Source: Flavobacteriales bacterium
GTDB lineage: Bacteria > Bacteroidota > Bacteroidia > CAIKAF01
DNA length: 64,000 bases
Assembly (NCBI GenBank): GCA_026418175.1
Contig: JAOABX010000005.1
Coordinates: 1-64,000 of the forward strand
Direction: 5' to 3'
How positions within the stretch are numbered: position 1 is the stretch's first letter; each line of letters opens with the position of its first letter. The notes below the pieces were generated by a model. That model did no database searches. It worked only from the letters and a program-made list of their open reading frames with translations, and was not told where the DNA came from. The translations under genes and the position numbers were made by a program. This document shows, piece after piece, positions 44,138 through 49,988 of this stretch.

Positions 44138-45274
44138 ATGTTGCGTTGCTTTTTTTCAATTATTTGGATATTAATACTCAGCTATAAAAGTTATTCCCAA
44201 GATAGCGTTACTATCATAAAAAAAGCTTGGATTCCCAATATATCTCTGGAAGCTTATATTGAAGCTTATTACCAGTACGATTTCAATCGCCCAATAGATG
44301 GTAACCGGCCATCATTTGTGTATTCGTTTAACCGTCATAATGAATTTAACATCAATCTTTCATATCTTAAAACAAAATTTCAGCATGATAGATACCGGGC
44401 TAATTTAGCATTCATGGCTGGAACATACAGTCAGGCAAACTTAGCTAATGAACCACCTTTATTTCGCCATATATTAGAAGCCAACATCGGATTTCGTTTA
44501 GCTAAAGGACTATGGCTCGATGGAGGAATTTTCCCATCTTACATAGGTTTTGAAAGTACAGTGGGCATGGATTGTTATAATGTAACTCGATCCATATTGG
44601 CGGACAATAGTCCGTATTTTTTCAGTGGTATCAAATTAGGTTATACTACTCCCAATGAAAAATTATATTTTGCTACATTAATTATCAACGGCTGGCAAAA
44701 TATCCATGAAACACCATTTAACAGTAATAAAGCATTAGGCCTACAAATACAAATAATGCCTACAGATAAAATTACTTTAAATTATAGCAATTTCATCGGC
44801 TATGAAACACCTGATAGCGCTAAACACTGGAGATTTTTTAATAATATTTACGGAATTTTTAATATCCATCAACATTTTCAATGCATCACCGGATTGGATA
44901 TCGGGATACAAGAAAAACAGCCGGGCAATTTATTGAATGTACATCTTTGGTATTCACCCGTATTGATTGTTCGAACTGTATTTGCTAAAAAATTCGCATT
45001 GGCATTACGTGGCGAATATTATCATGATCGAAAAGGAATTATTGTGAATATGACAACACCTGGTGGAATTAAAACCTGGGGAATAAGCATGAACTTCGAC
45101 TATCATCCTTGGGAATATTTAATTTGCAGACTGGAAGGCAAATTTTGGATGAATACCTCCGGAAAAATATTTCAATCGGCCGAAGGTAGTAGTCGATTTA
45201 GCCCAGTAATCATTGCATCCATTGCATTTCGATATGGACTATTACTAAATCAGGCTTCATCTAACAAGCACTAA
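44138..45274 (+). CDS. Outer-membrane porin, BBP2 (OmpL-like) type
   Basis: The 378-aa protein has a signal peptide (ending near SYKSYSQ) and a beta-barrel body with ISLEAYIEAYYQYDFNRP, GTYSQANLANEPPLFRHILEANIGFRLAKGLWLDGGIFPSYIGFE and many aromatic-flanked strands, typical of the putative beta-barrel porin-2 family. It should form a passive channel. It converges on hom with a 14-bp overlap at the 3' ends. Confidence 0.85.
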   Translation: MLRCFFSIIWILILSYKSYSQDSVTIIKKAWIPNISLEAYIEAYYQYDFNRPIDGNRPSFVYSFNRHNEFNINLSYLKTKFQHDRYRANLAFMAGTYSQANLANEPPLFRHILEANIGFRLAKGLWLDGGIFPSYIGFESTVGMDCYNVTRSILADNSPYFFSGIKLGYTTPNEKLYFATLIINGWQNIHETPFNSNKALGLQIQIMPTDKITLNYSNFIGYETPDSAKHWRFFNNIYGIFNIHQHFQCITGLDIGIQEKQPGNLLNVHLWYSPVLIVRTVFAKKFALALRGEYYHDRKGIIVNMTTPGGIKTWGISMNFDYHPWEYLICRLEGKFWMNTSGKIFQSAEGSSRFSPVIIASIAFRYGLLLNQASSNKH

Positions 45275-46529
45275 TTAGCCGGGTTAGCGATTTTAAGGCT
45301 TCATTCCGAAGCAGTGTTTTTCGAACCATAAATTCAGCATATTCATTCAGTTCGGCTACAAAACATTGATTAGCTAATAACACCTGTTGATATTCATTCA
45401 ATTTTTTTAAACTGATGTTTCCAACAGCTACTACCTCACCATGTATATTATCAGAATATAATATTGTAGAATCATCCATATGTTGTATCAATTCTATTTT
45501 TTTGGTTCGTAATAATACACGTATGCTATGTTCATTGGTAAATGCTAACCGATGATTAGATTGATTAAGTTTATGATACTCATATTTATAATGATAATGC
45601 AGAGCCACAATGTCTGATAACACGGCTGAACCGGTAGGGTGTCCTCCAGCTCCTTTTCCAACAAATTGCTGTTGATCGCTAAAGGCAGCTTTTACTAATA
45701 CCGTGTTAAATTCATATAATACACTTCCTATCGAAGAATTTGGTGTGATCAATACCGGTAGTACACTTACTCTTAATTGATTATTATTAACAATTTCAGC
45801 TTTAGCTTCTAATTTTACTACTAATCCTGCCTGACGTATCCATGATAAATCACGTGGTGTTAAGGCAGAAATTCCAATATTAAAAACATCATCAGGTGAT
45901 ATGACCACCCCAAAAGCATGAGTAGTTAAAATGATTAATTTATACTTGGCATCAAACCCTTCTACATCCAGCAAGGGGTTAGATTCTGCAAATCCTAATC
46001 GCTGAGCTTCAGCCAAAGCCTGCGCATACGTATTCCCATGATGAAAGATTTGCGTTAGTATATAATTGGATGAACCATTAAATATTCCATGAATAGATTG
46101 TAAATGCTCATTATTATAATACTCTTCCAAGGTACGTATTATGGGTATTCCACCGCAACTCGATGCTTCATAAAGTAGGGGTGTCTGATAAGTTTTTTGA
46201 AGTTCAATCAACTCTTGAAGATGCTCTGCTATCATCTTTTTATTGGCGGTAACTACTGCCTTTCCCTTCATCAAGGAAGATTTTACAATGCGATATGCCT
46301 CATCAGCATCATCAATTAATTCTACAATTACATTAATTTCAGGGTCATTTATTATTTCCTGAACATTAAAGGTAAAATAATGCAGGGGTAGGGAACGTGG
46401 TTTATTTTTATGTTTAACCGCTATTTTTTTTATCCGAATGAGTGAATTTGTATTTTTTGAAATAATATCATACAATCCTTGCCCTACACAACCAAACCCA
46501 ATCAATCCAATCGTTAATTTATTTTTCAT
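45261..46529 (-). CDS. hom: Homoserine dehydrogenase
   Basis: The 422-aa enzyme reduces aspartate semialdehyde to homoserine. It has the NAD(P) motif IGLIGFGCVGQGLYD at the N terminus, the catalytic domain with GIFNGSSNYIL and GFAESNPLLDVEGFDAKYK, and a C-terminal ACT-like segment (about 345-420), suggesting feedback control. It is the last gene of the met operon and overlaps metX by 11 bp, so supply of homoserine is tied to methionine regulation. Confidence 0.93.
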   Translation of the reverse strand: MKNKLTIGLIGFGCVGQGLYDIISKNTNSLIRIKKIAVKHKNKPRSLPLHYFTFNVQEIINDPEINVIVELIDDADEAYRIVKSSLMKGKAVVTANKKMIAEHLQELIELQKTYQTPLLYEASSCGGIPIIRTLEEYYNNEHLQSIHGIFNGSSNYILTQIFHHGNTYAQALAEAQRLGFAESNPLLDVEGFDAKYKLIILTTHAFGVVISPDDVFNIGISALTPRDLSWIRQAGLVVKLEAKAEIVNNNQLRVSVLPVLITPNSSIGSVLYEFNTVLVKAAFSDQQQFVGKGAGGHPTGSAVLSDIVALHYHYKYEYHKLNQSNHRLAFTNEHSIRVLLRTKKIELIQHMDDSTILYSDNIHGEVVAVGNISLKKLNEYQQVLLANQCFVAELNEYAEFMVRKTLLRNEALKSLTRLISAC

Positions 46530-47580
46530 GGTATAATTGCTTTATTTGTTTATCAGAACTTTGAAATAGATTTGAAAATTGTTTACTAAGAATTTCGGAT
46601 ATTTTTTTGGTTTCTATTAAAAATCCATCATGCCCAAATAATGATTCAATAACAAACAACCGAGCATTCGGTACATGCTGAACAATGAACATTTGCTCAT
46701 CAATCGGGAAAAGAATATCTGTATCAATACCAATCACTGTTAGTGGGATTTGAATGGAAGCTAATACTTCCTCCAACATACCCCTATTTCTGGCAATGTG
46801 ATGGCTATCCATAGCATAAAGCAAAGCGATGTAACTAAACGCGTTAAAACGTTTTGCTAATTTTTCACCCTGGTACTGCTGATAACTCCAAGCTTTGTAA
46901 TGATTCAACGCATCCTTATCATCTGATTGCGTATTTGCATATGTGTTATAATGACGATAACTTAATAACGCTATGCTTCTTGCGGCTTTTAAACCTTCTA
47001 ACCCTGCCTTGGGGTCAGAGTATTTAAATGTTTTATCAGCTTTAATCGCCATTCGTTGTGATTCATTAAATGCTTTACCCCAAGCAGAGTGAAAAGCATT
47101 GGTGGCAATAGGTACTGCATGCTGAATTACAGTTGGCTCTACAATACACCATTCTAATACTTGCTGGCCTCCTAATGAACCTCCAATCAATACATCAATA
47201 GTTGGAATACCTAAATACTTCCTCAACAAAATGTGAGCCTTTATCATATCACGTACTGTGATGAGCGGAAATGAATGATAATATGGGTTACCCGTAACAG
47301 GATTTATTGACAAAGGGCCTGTTGATCCATAACATGAGCCAAGTACATTAGCACATACAATAAAATGTTTATCCGGATCAAATAATTTACCATTTCCTAC
47401 TAACCCACCCCACCATTCGGCAGCATCACTATTAGCTGTTAAGGCATGACAAATCCATACCACAGGCTTTACTCCCTTCGCATACTGTCCATATGTATGA
47501 TAACCGATTGTAAGCGAAGGGAGTATTTCACCGTTTTCTAATTCAAATGCCTGTGAAATATGCAATTCCTGATATCCCAT
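46519..47580 (-). CDS. metX: Homoserine O-acetyltransferase
   Basis: The 353-aa alpha/beta-hydrolase acetylates homoserine using acetyl-CoA. Signatures are VWICHALTANSDAAEWWGGLVG, the nucleophile elbow IGGSLGGQQVLEW, and the C-terminal Asp and His of the triad (VIGIDTDILFP and FGHDGFLIE). The product O-acetylhomoserine is the substrate of the MetY encoded two genes upstream. Its ATG shares a base with the osmC stop (TAATG). Confidence 0.95.
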   Translation of the reverse strand: MGYQELHISQAFELENGEILPSLTIGYHTYGQYAKGVKPVVWICHALTANSDAAEWWGGLVGNGKLFDPDKHFIVCANVLGSCYGSTGPLSINPVTGNPYYHSFPLITVRDMIKAHILLRKYLGIPTIDVLIGGSLGGQQVLEWCIVEPTVIQHAVPIATNAFHSAWGKAFNESQRMAIKADKTFKYSDPKAGLEGLKAARSIALLSYRHYNTYANTQSDDKDALNHYKAWSYQQYQGEKLAKRFNAFSYIALLYAMDSHHIARNRGMLEEVLASIQIPLTVIGIDTDILFPIDEQMFIVQHVPNARLFVIESLFGHDGFLIETKKISEILSKQFSNLFQSSDKQIKQLYHEK

Positions 47581-48032
47581 TAATTTAAAATGAGCGGTTG
47601 TTTTAACAAATAAGATATTGGGGTTTCATTTGAAAGGTTATCGTTGACCGGGCAGCGTTGTTTTACTTCATCAATCAATCGATTGATGTCTTCTTGAGAA
47701 GCATTGGCTTCGATAGCTATTTCTACCTGCAATGATTGAAACCCCGCCCTAACATCAAATGATTGACCCAATAGTCGTAACGGATTAATATCACCCTGTA
47801 TATTAATTCGCAAATCGTGAATTGTAATGTTTTTTTCTTTTGCGATGATATGTGTTACAACATTTATGCATCCGGCATACCCAGCCAATAAATATTCCAC
47901 TGGATTTGGAGCATCATCTTCTCCGCCCAATTCTTTTGGTTCATCTATAATAATATTAAATCTTCTTGCTTTTACTTCTGTCTTGGTAGTATTGTAAGCC
48001 TTGCCTTGAACACTAAATCGAATAGTTGACAT
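47580..48032 (-). CDS. OsmC family protein
   Basis: The 150-aa protein has the OsmC fold with the two reactive cysteines Cys55 (LLAGYAGCINVV) and Cys127 (KQRCPVNDNL), so it is likely a thiol-dependent peroxidase or a sulfur-transfer protein. OsmC proteins usually respond to hydroperoxide stress, so its position between metY and metX is unusual and hints at a role in sulfur handling. It lies 20 bp after metY. Confidence 0.9.
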   Translation of the reverse strand: MSTIRFSVQGKAYNTTKTEVKARRFNIIIDEPKELGGEDDAPNPVEYLLAGYAGCINVVTHIIAKEKNITIHDLRINIQGDINPLRLLGQSFDVRAGFQSLQVEIAIEANASQEDINRLIDEVKQRCPVNDNLSNETPISYLLKQPLILN

Positions 48033-48052: not shown

Positions 48053-49493
<1,441 letters not shown>

Positions 49494-49496
49494 GGA

Positions 49497-49610
49497 TTAC
49501 ATCCAGCAACACATGCAGCAACAACAAGAATAAAATGGGGAAATTCTAAAAGCGGAATATTTCACCTGTTGGGTGAAGTTTAGATTTGGAATGTTTGTAA
49601 TTACTTTCAT
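49497..49610 (-). CDS. 37-aa polycysteine leader peptide upstream of metY
   Basis: ATG 49610 opens a 37-codon frame that ends SCCCCMCCWM and stop at 49497. Six of the last nine residues are Cys and two are Met. It begins 12 nt after the end of the riboswitch P1 helix and stops about 100 nt before metY, in the metY direction. Polycysteine short ORFs act as cysteine-responsive attenuators in mycobacteria; here the same logic would make ribosomes stall when charged Cys-tRNA is scarce. The start context TAAATTAAAC-ATG is AT-rich and unstructured, as usual for this phylum. A longer frame to 49724 overlaps the riboswitch and is not used. Confidence 0.6.
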   Translation of the reverse strand: MKVITNIPNLNFTQQVKYSAFRISPFYSCCCCMCCWM

Positions 49611-49621
49611 GTTTAATTTAC

Positions 49622-49762
49622 ATTTATCTTTCTCCGCTCCACACCATGTGGAGTTGGGAGCAGGATTTGGCACCGGTTTTCCAATTCCCAAAAGGGAACT
49701 TATAGTTGGTTGCCAGAGGGTCATAGAGCCTGTTCTCTCACCTCATTCTCAATAAATCTTAG
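49622..49762 (-). ncRNA. SAM-I (S-box) riboswitch
   Basis: On the minus strand the conserved core is visible in order: a P1 strand (ATTTAT at 49757-49752), GAGGTGAGAGAACAGGCTC, GACCCTCTGGCAACC, the P3 hairpin TTCCC/GGGAA, GGTGCCAAATCCTGC, the P4 hairpin CTCCACA/TGTGGAG, and the closing P1 strand ATAAAT (49627-49622). These match the S-box consensus (GAGG..GAGGGA, CGGCAACC, GGTGCTAAATCCTGC). It should bind S-adenosylmethionine and turn off the metY operon. No terminator directly follows P1, so control may act through the leader ORF or the downstream attenuator. Confidence 0.93.
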
Positions 49763-49789
49763 TACAAAACGTACACCAGAACGTTGCAG

Positions 49790-49821
49790 CAAATATAAAA
49801 ATAGAATGTTTGAATTTGCAA
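49790..49821 (-). promoter_or_regulatory. Promoter of the metY operon leader
   Basis: On the minus strand TTG (49821-49819), a 21-bp spacer and TATATTTG (49797-49790) match the Bacteroidota promoter. The predicted start is about 25 nt before the riboswitch P1 helix, which fits. The remaining 49822-49988 between this promoter and the flippase gene is AT-rich with nothing recognised. Confidence 0.5.
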
Positions 49822-49988
49822 GTAATTATAAAAATAATTTTTCAATTACCCTTAATTTCCTTTATTTATGAGATTTACAAAAGCAACAGATAATATTCTA
49901 TTAACATGGTGAAGAAAAATTATTGTAAATCCACAAAGAGTAATTTATTTATTCATATAACCGCTCATTTAAATTTTACTAATTTTCA

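Follow-up and report, generated by a model that had tools for sequence, protein, structure and literature searches.

The methionine operon of the window, the stretch of 64,000 nt of DNA analyzed here, is preceded by a 37-codon leader ORF that starts shortly after a full-length SAM-I aptamer and ends in a run of cysteine codons, and leaders of the same kind stand before metY in many genomes of the class Bacteroidia. It is considered rather likely that this arrangement is a two-input leader, in which the SAM-I aptamer and the cysteine-codon ORF act in series, a reading for which only sequence evidence is available.

An earlier note on this DNA had described a short frame with the C-terminus SCCCCMCCWM, lying on the same strand between a complete SAM-I aptamer and metY. 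The description is confirmed on both counts, for the frame by its translation, which places six Cys within codons 29-35, and for the aptamer by a match to RF00162 that is full length and above the gathering score (Table 1). This aptamer is the sole SAM-I aptamer found in the genome. The leader ORF has no match in Pfam. An alternative, longer in-frame start within the aptamer would give 75 aa, and the 37-codon start appears preferable because it matches the position conserved in relatives. A comparable cluster (a short ORF with 6 Cys per 10 codons) arose in 0.015% of dinucleotide shuffles of the window leader, as little as had been supposed. In the same-genus genome G003, the Cys run and the stop are identical at 30/30 bases in the alignment, while the N-terminal part of the leader ORF is 55% identical and the aptamer 95%, the footprint that would be expected if the terminal codons matter and the remaining peptide does not.

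Downstream of the leader ORF, the genes follow in the order metY-osmC-metX-hom, all on the minus strand. The OsmC-like gene is thus placed between metY and metX within a met operon; an OsmC-like frame likewise follows cysH at another locus, L311, as judged by eye without a profile. The consensus of Bacteroidota promoters is TTTG at -33 and TAnnTTTG at -7, and a candidate promoter of this kind is included in Table 1; a scan for sigma-70-like promoters gave no excess (3 found vs 2.2 expected from shuffles).

Table 1. Features of the leader and the operon in the window, with G003 denoting the same-genus genome.
Feature	Position	Strand	Remarks
Candidate promoter region, both elements	49790-49821	minus	resembles Bacteroidota consensus
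Candidate promoter, TTGCAA	49821-49816	minus	conserved in G003
Candidate promoter, TATATTTG	49797-49790	minus	conserved in G003
SAM-I aptamer RF00162	49621-49758	minus	55.3 bits vs gathering 44.4; model 1-108, full length
Leader ORF, 37 codons, translation MKVITNIPNLNFTQQVKYSAFRISPFYSCCCCMCCWM and stop	49497-49610	minus	ATG 10 nt past aptamer 3' end
Control codons Cys-Cys-Cys-Cys-Met-Cys-Cys-Trp-Met	49500-49526	minus	identical in G003
Segment 1 (GUUGCUGCAU), within Cys codons	49513-49522	minus	pairs with segment 2 if no ribosome
UAA stop of leader ORF	49499-49497	minus	directly after control codons
Segment 2 (GGGUGCAGUAAU), just past stop codon	49482-49493	minus	identical in G003
Hairpin 3:4, GCCGAU-AGUGCACCC-AUCGGC	49447-49467	minus	identical in G003
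Segment 3, UGCACCC in loop of hairpin 3:4	49459-49453	minus	
U-tract UUUUUU	49435-49440	minus	6 nt past hairpin; not canonical intrinsic terminator
metY, O-acetylhomoserine sulfhydrylase	48053-49393	minus	TIGR01326, 690 bits vs cut-off 495.1
OsmC-like protein gene, operon gene 2	47580-48032	minus	PF02566, 73.9 bits
metX-like, homoserine O-acetyltransferase	46519-47580	minus	best match TIGR01392, E 4e-101, 338.5 bits, below the equivalog cut-off of 500
hom, homoserine dehydrogenase	45261-46529	minus	PRK06349, 329.7 bits vs cut-off 205; PF00742

Elsewhere in the 2.68-Mb genome, TGYTGYTGYTGY occurs inside an ATG-started short ORF at two further sites. One of them (L234) lies on the strand opposite a long coding frame, and at the other (L235) the run lies mid-peptide with 28 codons after it; this mid-peptide run aside, no other polycysteine leader was found among the matches to TGYTGYTGYTGY in the genome. 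The pattern of a polycysteine run plus stop has matches in most other genomes, and among 30 sampled matches there an ATG-started short ORF was present in 3, all inside long frames.

The spread of the leader was assessed in the regions upstream of metY, taken from 73 of 395 class genomes with a close metY and at 80 named loci in the collection of species genomes, which yielded 148 usable leaders. The metY sample was picked by similarity to the metY of the window, ORF starts are first in-frame ATGs, the thresholds for a Cys cluster were set after the first leaders had been seen, and the class-wide counts carry no correction for phylogeny. Of the 148 leaders, 79 have a short ORF in which 10 codons include at least 4 Cys, against 1 in antisense and 1.75 expected from shuffles, so that chance does not explain the clusters; at least 6 Cys in 10 codons were found in 42/148, against 0 in antisense and 0 expected. 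The Cys leader ORF is present in 17 of the 26 sampled families, among others in Pontibacter, Hymenobacter, Rufibacter, Chryseolinea, Pedobacter, Sphingobacterium (a MAG) and Saprospiraceae MAGs, and the absence of a Cys run in relatives, which the earlier note had named as refuting its proposal, is not what was found. Among 16 genomes of the family or order of the window covered by an RF00162 search, the Cys leader was seen only in the genus pair.

The test of conservation at the codon level that had been proposed with the leader search also came out in favor of a coding sequence. Both TGT and TGC are used in 90/98 leaders, and in runs of at least four TGN triplets the third base is Y 239 times and R 12 times in sense, against 10 and 10 in antisense. 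Since the two codons are mixed and the third-position Y is kept, conservation is at the level of the amino acid. The share of cysteine is 49% within the cluster and 1.0% in the leader remainder; over the last 14 residues, Cys accounts for 38.6% and Met for 12.3% class-wide. The leaders are 32-51 codons long (10th-90th percentile), and the Cys run abuts the stop, with 0-1 codon past the last Cys in 52/77 leaders.

In aptamer-bearing leaders, the start of the ORF is tied to the aptamer. Aptamers upstream of metY were placed with a covariance model built in the analysis, to which 105 leaders were positive, 79 of them with a Cys ORF and 26 without a detected one. The ATG of the Cys ORF lies at +6 to +10 nt from the P1 3' end in 61/79 leaders, and any ATG is found at this distance in 67/79, while equal intervals further downstream contain one in only 0-3/79. 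Of the 30 SAM-I aptamers with the highest scores in the class, most of which precede other genes, 4 have an ATG at +6 to +10. Furthermore, 21 of the 26 aptamer-bearing leaders without a Cys ORF keep an ATG at +6 to +10, and therefore the coupling of SAM to the ORF is independent of the Cys codons. A short ORF start close behind an aptamer is one of the features of a riboswitch-controlled uORF. It is inferred, from geometry alone and without data on SAM binding or from reporters, that the type of aptamer in metY leaders controls initiation of the leader ORF. The earlier note had seen the operon as sensing both SAM and cysteine; the combination of a cysteine-sensing leader with SAM-I has comparative support, but two independent sensors are probably not involved, because the ORF start stands at a nearly fixed distance from P1. 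The leader ORF probably serves as the putative expression platform of the aptamer, with serial (AND-type) logic.

The combination is not confined to metY. A search with a model of the aptamer plus the start region found the aptamer-plus-polycysteine module upstream of metX at seven loci (L287, L290, L289, L299, L303, L309 and L310), where metX was identified by profile search except at L290, which is nearly identical to L287. The same module stands once before a cysH-like gene (phosphoadenylyl-sulfate reductase) at L311, and its leader ends in TICCCCCCC. The placement of the element before the methionine operon, as given in the earlier note, therefore holds at metY but is too narrow for the class, and its occurrence at metX and cysH-like loci makes it a portable element. 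SAM-I aptamers before other genes (L306-L308, L313, L315-L317) had no Cys leader.

The window leader was also examined by folding. The 1:2 duplex has an energy of -12.0 kcal/mol, and GGGUGCA (49493-49487) of segment 2 is complementary to segment 3. The computed probability of hairpin 3:4 is 0.97 in free RNA and 0.98 with a ribosome at the stop, and it is at most 0.08 with a ribosome stalled at each of the six Cys codons, as UGCACCC is then taken up in pairing with GGGUGCA. Only 7/2000 shuffles gave a three-state switch as good (P = 0.0035). Two features of trp/his-type attenuators, a short ORF with a regulatory codon cluster for the pathway amino acid and mutually exclusive pairings 1:2, 2:3 and 3:4, are present, the latter in silico and in the window only. 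A terminator beside the aptamer, the usual though not obligatory SAM-I platform, was not found by a terminator scan of the minus strand of 49380-49850, and no terminator-like site was called there, the U-tract lying 6 nt past the stem.

On these grounds, a sequence of four steps is proposed. SAM would stabilize P1 and leave the leader untranslated at high SAM, a step deduced from geometry and spacing only; the leader would be blocked because the P1 3' strand ends 10 nt before the AUG, within the footprint of an initiating ribosome. At low SAM the leader would be translated, and the ribosome at the Cys (and Met) run would proceed or stall according to charged tRNA-Cys; coding and conservation are demonstrated here, and cysteine sensing is inferred. 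In the third step, which relies on folding of the window only, hairpin 3:4 would form in untranslated RNA or with a ribosome at the stop, and a stall at any of the six Cys codons would let segment 2 pair with segment 3 and abolish the hairpin. Finally, by inference, the hairpin state would halt transcription or else block expression, and metY-osmC-metX-hom would be on only if SAM is low and cysteine short. High SAM would mean off at any cysteine level, provided that opening the hairpin needs translation of the leader, and low SAM would mean on only if the ribosome stalls at Cys codons, so that SAM and cysteine would both have to be low (AND logic). Such logic would make sense for an enzyme that incorporates sulfide into homocysteine, as inferred from the fold and from what is generally known of the pathway.

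The later steps are not shared in this form by the relatives. As a class-wide rule the three-state fold of the window was rejected, being found in 7% of 73 real aptamer-bearing leaders and in 7% of shuffled ones, and therefore the third step cannot be generalized. Canonical intrinsic terminators were likewise rejected as the general mechanism of aptamer-bearing leaders (9/79 vs 7.2 expected). Sequestration of the metY start is not supported, the last 60 nt before metY being unstructured (mean z +0.29). The 80 nt after the leader stop are structured beyond shuffles (mean z -1.5). In group alignments, covariation was found only in a Pedobacter-like hairpin, with two-sided changes in 4/5 pairs of helix 2 (9 cells; 0/500 shuffles), and the Hymenobacter consensus fold is essentially empty. 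The last step is probably different in relatives. Where these bear the aptamer, their leaders lack a U-tract terminator and have some 80 nt of structured sequence, and Rho-dependent termination is the leading candidate for the step.

Leaders without the aptamer contain one or two short Cys/Met-rich ORFs. Intrinsic terminators are present in 9/21 of them, against 1.2 expected, and antiterminators stand well above shuffles in several (L083, L090, L093 and L205). Regulation in these relatives would run through a single Cys/Met leader or a pair of them, in many cases with an ordinary intrinsic terminator behind. Met codons number 2.63 per 12 in aptamer-less and 1.31 in aptamer-bearing leaders (P = 1e-4, without phylogenetic correction), and a possible reading has Met codons taking over from the absent SAM sensor. 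Tandem Cys/Met leader ORFs were observed upstream of metY at L083, L090, L093 and L094, none of which has a SAM-I aptamer, each ORF being followed by an intrinsic terminator. With confidence only slightly better than even, the whole can be viewed as a class-wide, portable sulfur-control element of Bacteroidota, placed before metY, metX or cysH, in which a codon-sensing leader is the expression platform of a riboswitch and aptamer-less lineages compensate with Met codons and tandem attenuators.

Other explanations of these leaders differ in how much of the serial reading they leave standing. One that would keep the first two steps is that Rho terminates transcription past the leader stop, a stalled ribosome masking or delaying the Rho-loading site and an untranslated leader leaving it open, so that the hairpins would be pause sites or protective structures. 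The lack of excess intrinsic terminators in aptamer-bearing leaders fits with this, as do the closeness of the Cys run to the stop and a C/G ratio of 1.5-2.0 in the first 30 nt past it, but this preference for C over G is modest and is repeated in similar form nearer metY, and the hairpin switch of the window accounts for the data without Rho. There are precedents, since Rho has been suggested for mycobacterial cys leaders (PMC1262725) and an Mbox-controlled uORF of M. tuberculosis is linked to Rho-dependent termination (PMC12810186). Termination by Rho is accordingly regarded as quite possible, though somewhat short of an even chance. The aptamer and the Cys leader could instead be independent, the spacing being a matter of packing and the aptamer acting on something other than leader initiation. 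Cys leaders do occur without the aptamer, and data on SAM binding or its effect on the leader are lacking. This is nevertheless unlikely, as the spacing of the ATG is tight with neighboring intervals nearly free of ATG, no room is left between P1 and the ATG for a separate expression platform, and the ATG persists behind the aptamer where the Cys ORF is missing.

Two further explanations dispense with cysteine codons as the signal. The polycysteine nascent peptide is rich in thiols and might bind a metal or a thiol reagent that governs stalling, as in the copper-sensing CruR, a Cys-containing uORF acting via Rho (PMC9426467). This is highly improbable for peptides in which the CXXC plus RAPP arrangement of CruR is missing and the Cys spacing is not fixed, whose Met codons are enriched too, and which precede sulfur assimilation genes with SAM-I as the partner sensor. 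The peptide of the window in particular has no RAPP and no Pfam match, and its Cys run is not a CXXC arrangement, which also sets it apart from the CruR / DUF2946 copper uORFs. As direct evidence of translation is absent, the ORF could also encode a functional protein of small size, or the run of TGN triplets could be an untranslated motif at the nucleotide level; an N-terminus only 55% identical even within the genus, the varying length and the want of a Pfam match speak against a protein, and the third-position Y bias with mixed Cys codons points to coding, which makes either barely tenable.

Several known systems come close. In mycobacteria, Canestrari et al. (2020) reportedly described polycysteine leaderless short ORFs, with experiments. 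Leader peptides with Cys runs have also been predicted in Actinobacteria (PMC1262725). The present leaders resemble these in that a short ORF preceding sulfur genes carries a Cys run close to its stop and, as in the mycobacterial regions examined, in the absence of a conserved intrinsic terminator. However, the mycobacterial ORFs are leaderless, whereas the ATG of the window is preceded by a full SAM-I aptamer on the same strand (with the TSS unmapped), and the portions of the literature available mention no riboswitch alongside the mycobacterial ORFs. The present ORFs furthermore belong to Bacteroidota, follow SAM-I at a nearly fixed spacing, mix Met codons with Cys and precede metY, metX or cysH. 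In Rhodobacterales, the uORFC-8-2 motif before cysS is likewise a Cys-codon leader, read as a ribosome-mediated attenuator, but it has two Cys codons, a U-run terminator and no aptamer, and concerns another gene and phylum (PMC8632094). Riboswitches that control or interact with a short upstream ORF are the Mbox (PMC12810186) and the B12 riboswitch (PMC11260477) of M. tuberculosis; these have other ligands, and an amino-acid-sensing codon run is not described in the accessible parts of the two papers. Compared with SAM-I (S box) riboswitches with an intrinsic terminator, the window shares the RF00162 aptamer but has a leader ORF where the terminator would be adjacent to it. Compared with trp/his-type attenuators, it shares the control codons and the exclusive pairings, but the U-tract is offset, translation of the leader is probably gated by SAM, and the switch is not general in relatives.

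No Cys leader of Bacteroidota and no SAM-I aptamer with a polycysteine leader was found in the literature searched, which excluded most subscription journals, in agreement with the statement of the earlier note that no such case was known; within this limit, the fusion of the two looks new. If the serial reading is true, two sulfur metabolites would be read one after the other by an RNA device of wide distribution, with a riboswitch acting via a codon-sensing leader and not via a terminator or the start site of the gene itself. Cysteine attenuation would then also exist in Bacteroidota, and metY, metX and cysH there would have a mechanism of control. Lineages with and without the aptamer offer a natural comparison of how sensing shifts between aptamer and codons, and the presence of the leaders in culturable genera (Pontibacter, Hymenobacter and Pedobacter) makes them directly testable.

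Several other short ORFs were observed around these leaders. An Arg-Met-(Arg/Cys) motif recurs near the end of other short leader ORFs by SAM-I aptamers (L006, L007 upstream of hom, L055, L067, L116 and, in Hymenobacter, L097, L099 and L173), in the forms HSIRMRLI, SHSFRMRM, FRMRQSC, FRMCMPVNI, MRMRMPM and RMRMCC. In metY leaders of the Algoriphagus type (L070, L073, L141, L148), the aptamer is followed by an ATG at +9 and a peptide without a Cys run, and GATTTAT(A), as in the P1 5' strand, repeats just past the ATG, which suggests alternative pairing. Family f68 (L106, L110, L133) has very short leaders after the aptamer that lack a Cys run and have in common a Cys-Met motif (QQCMPP, QQCMSS, RRCMPP). 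At L074:2924-3148:-, L086:1079-1303:+, L087:1229-1447:+ and L192:2723-2926:+, the polycysteine leader and metY are separated by a small, conserved ORF (about 70-75 aa) without a confident Pfam match, and similar ORFs lie upstream of metX in L287 and L299.
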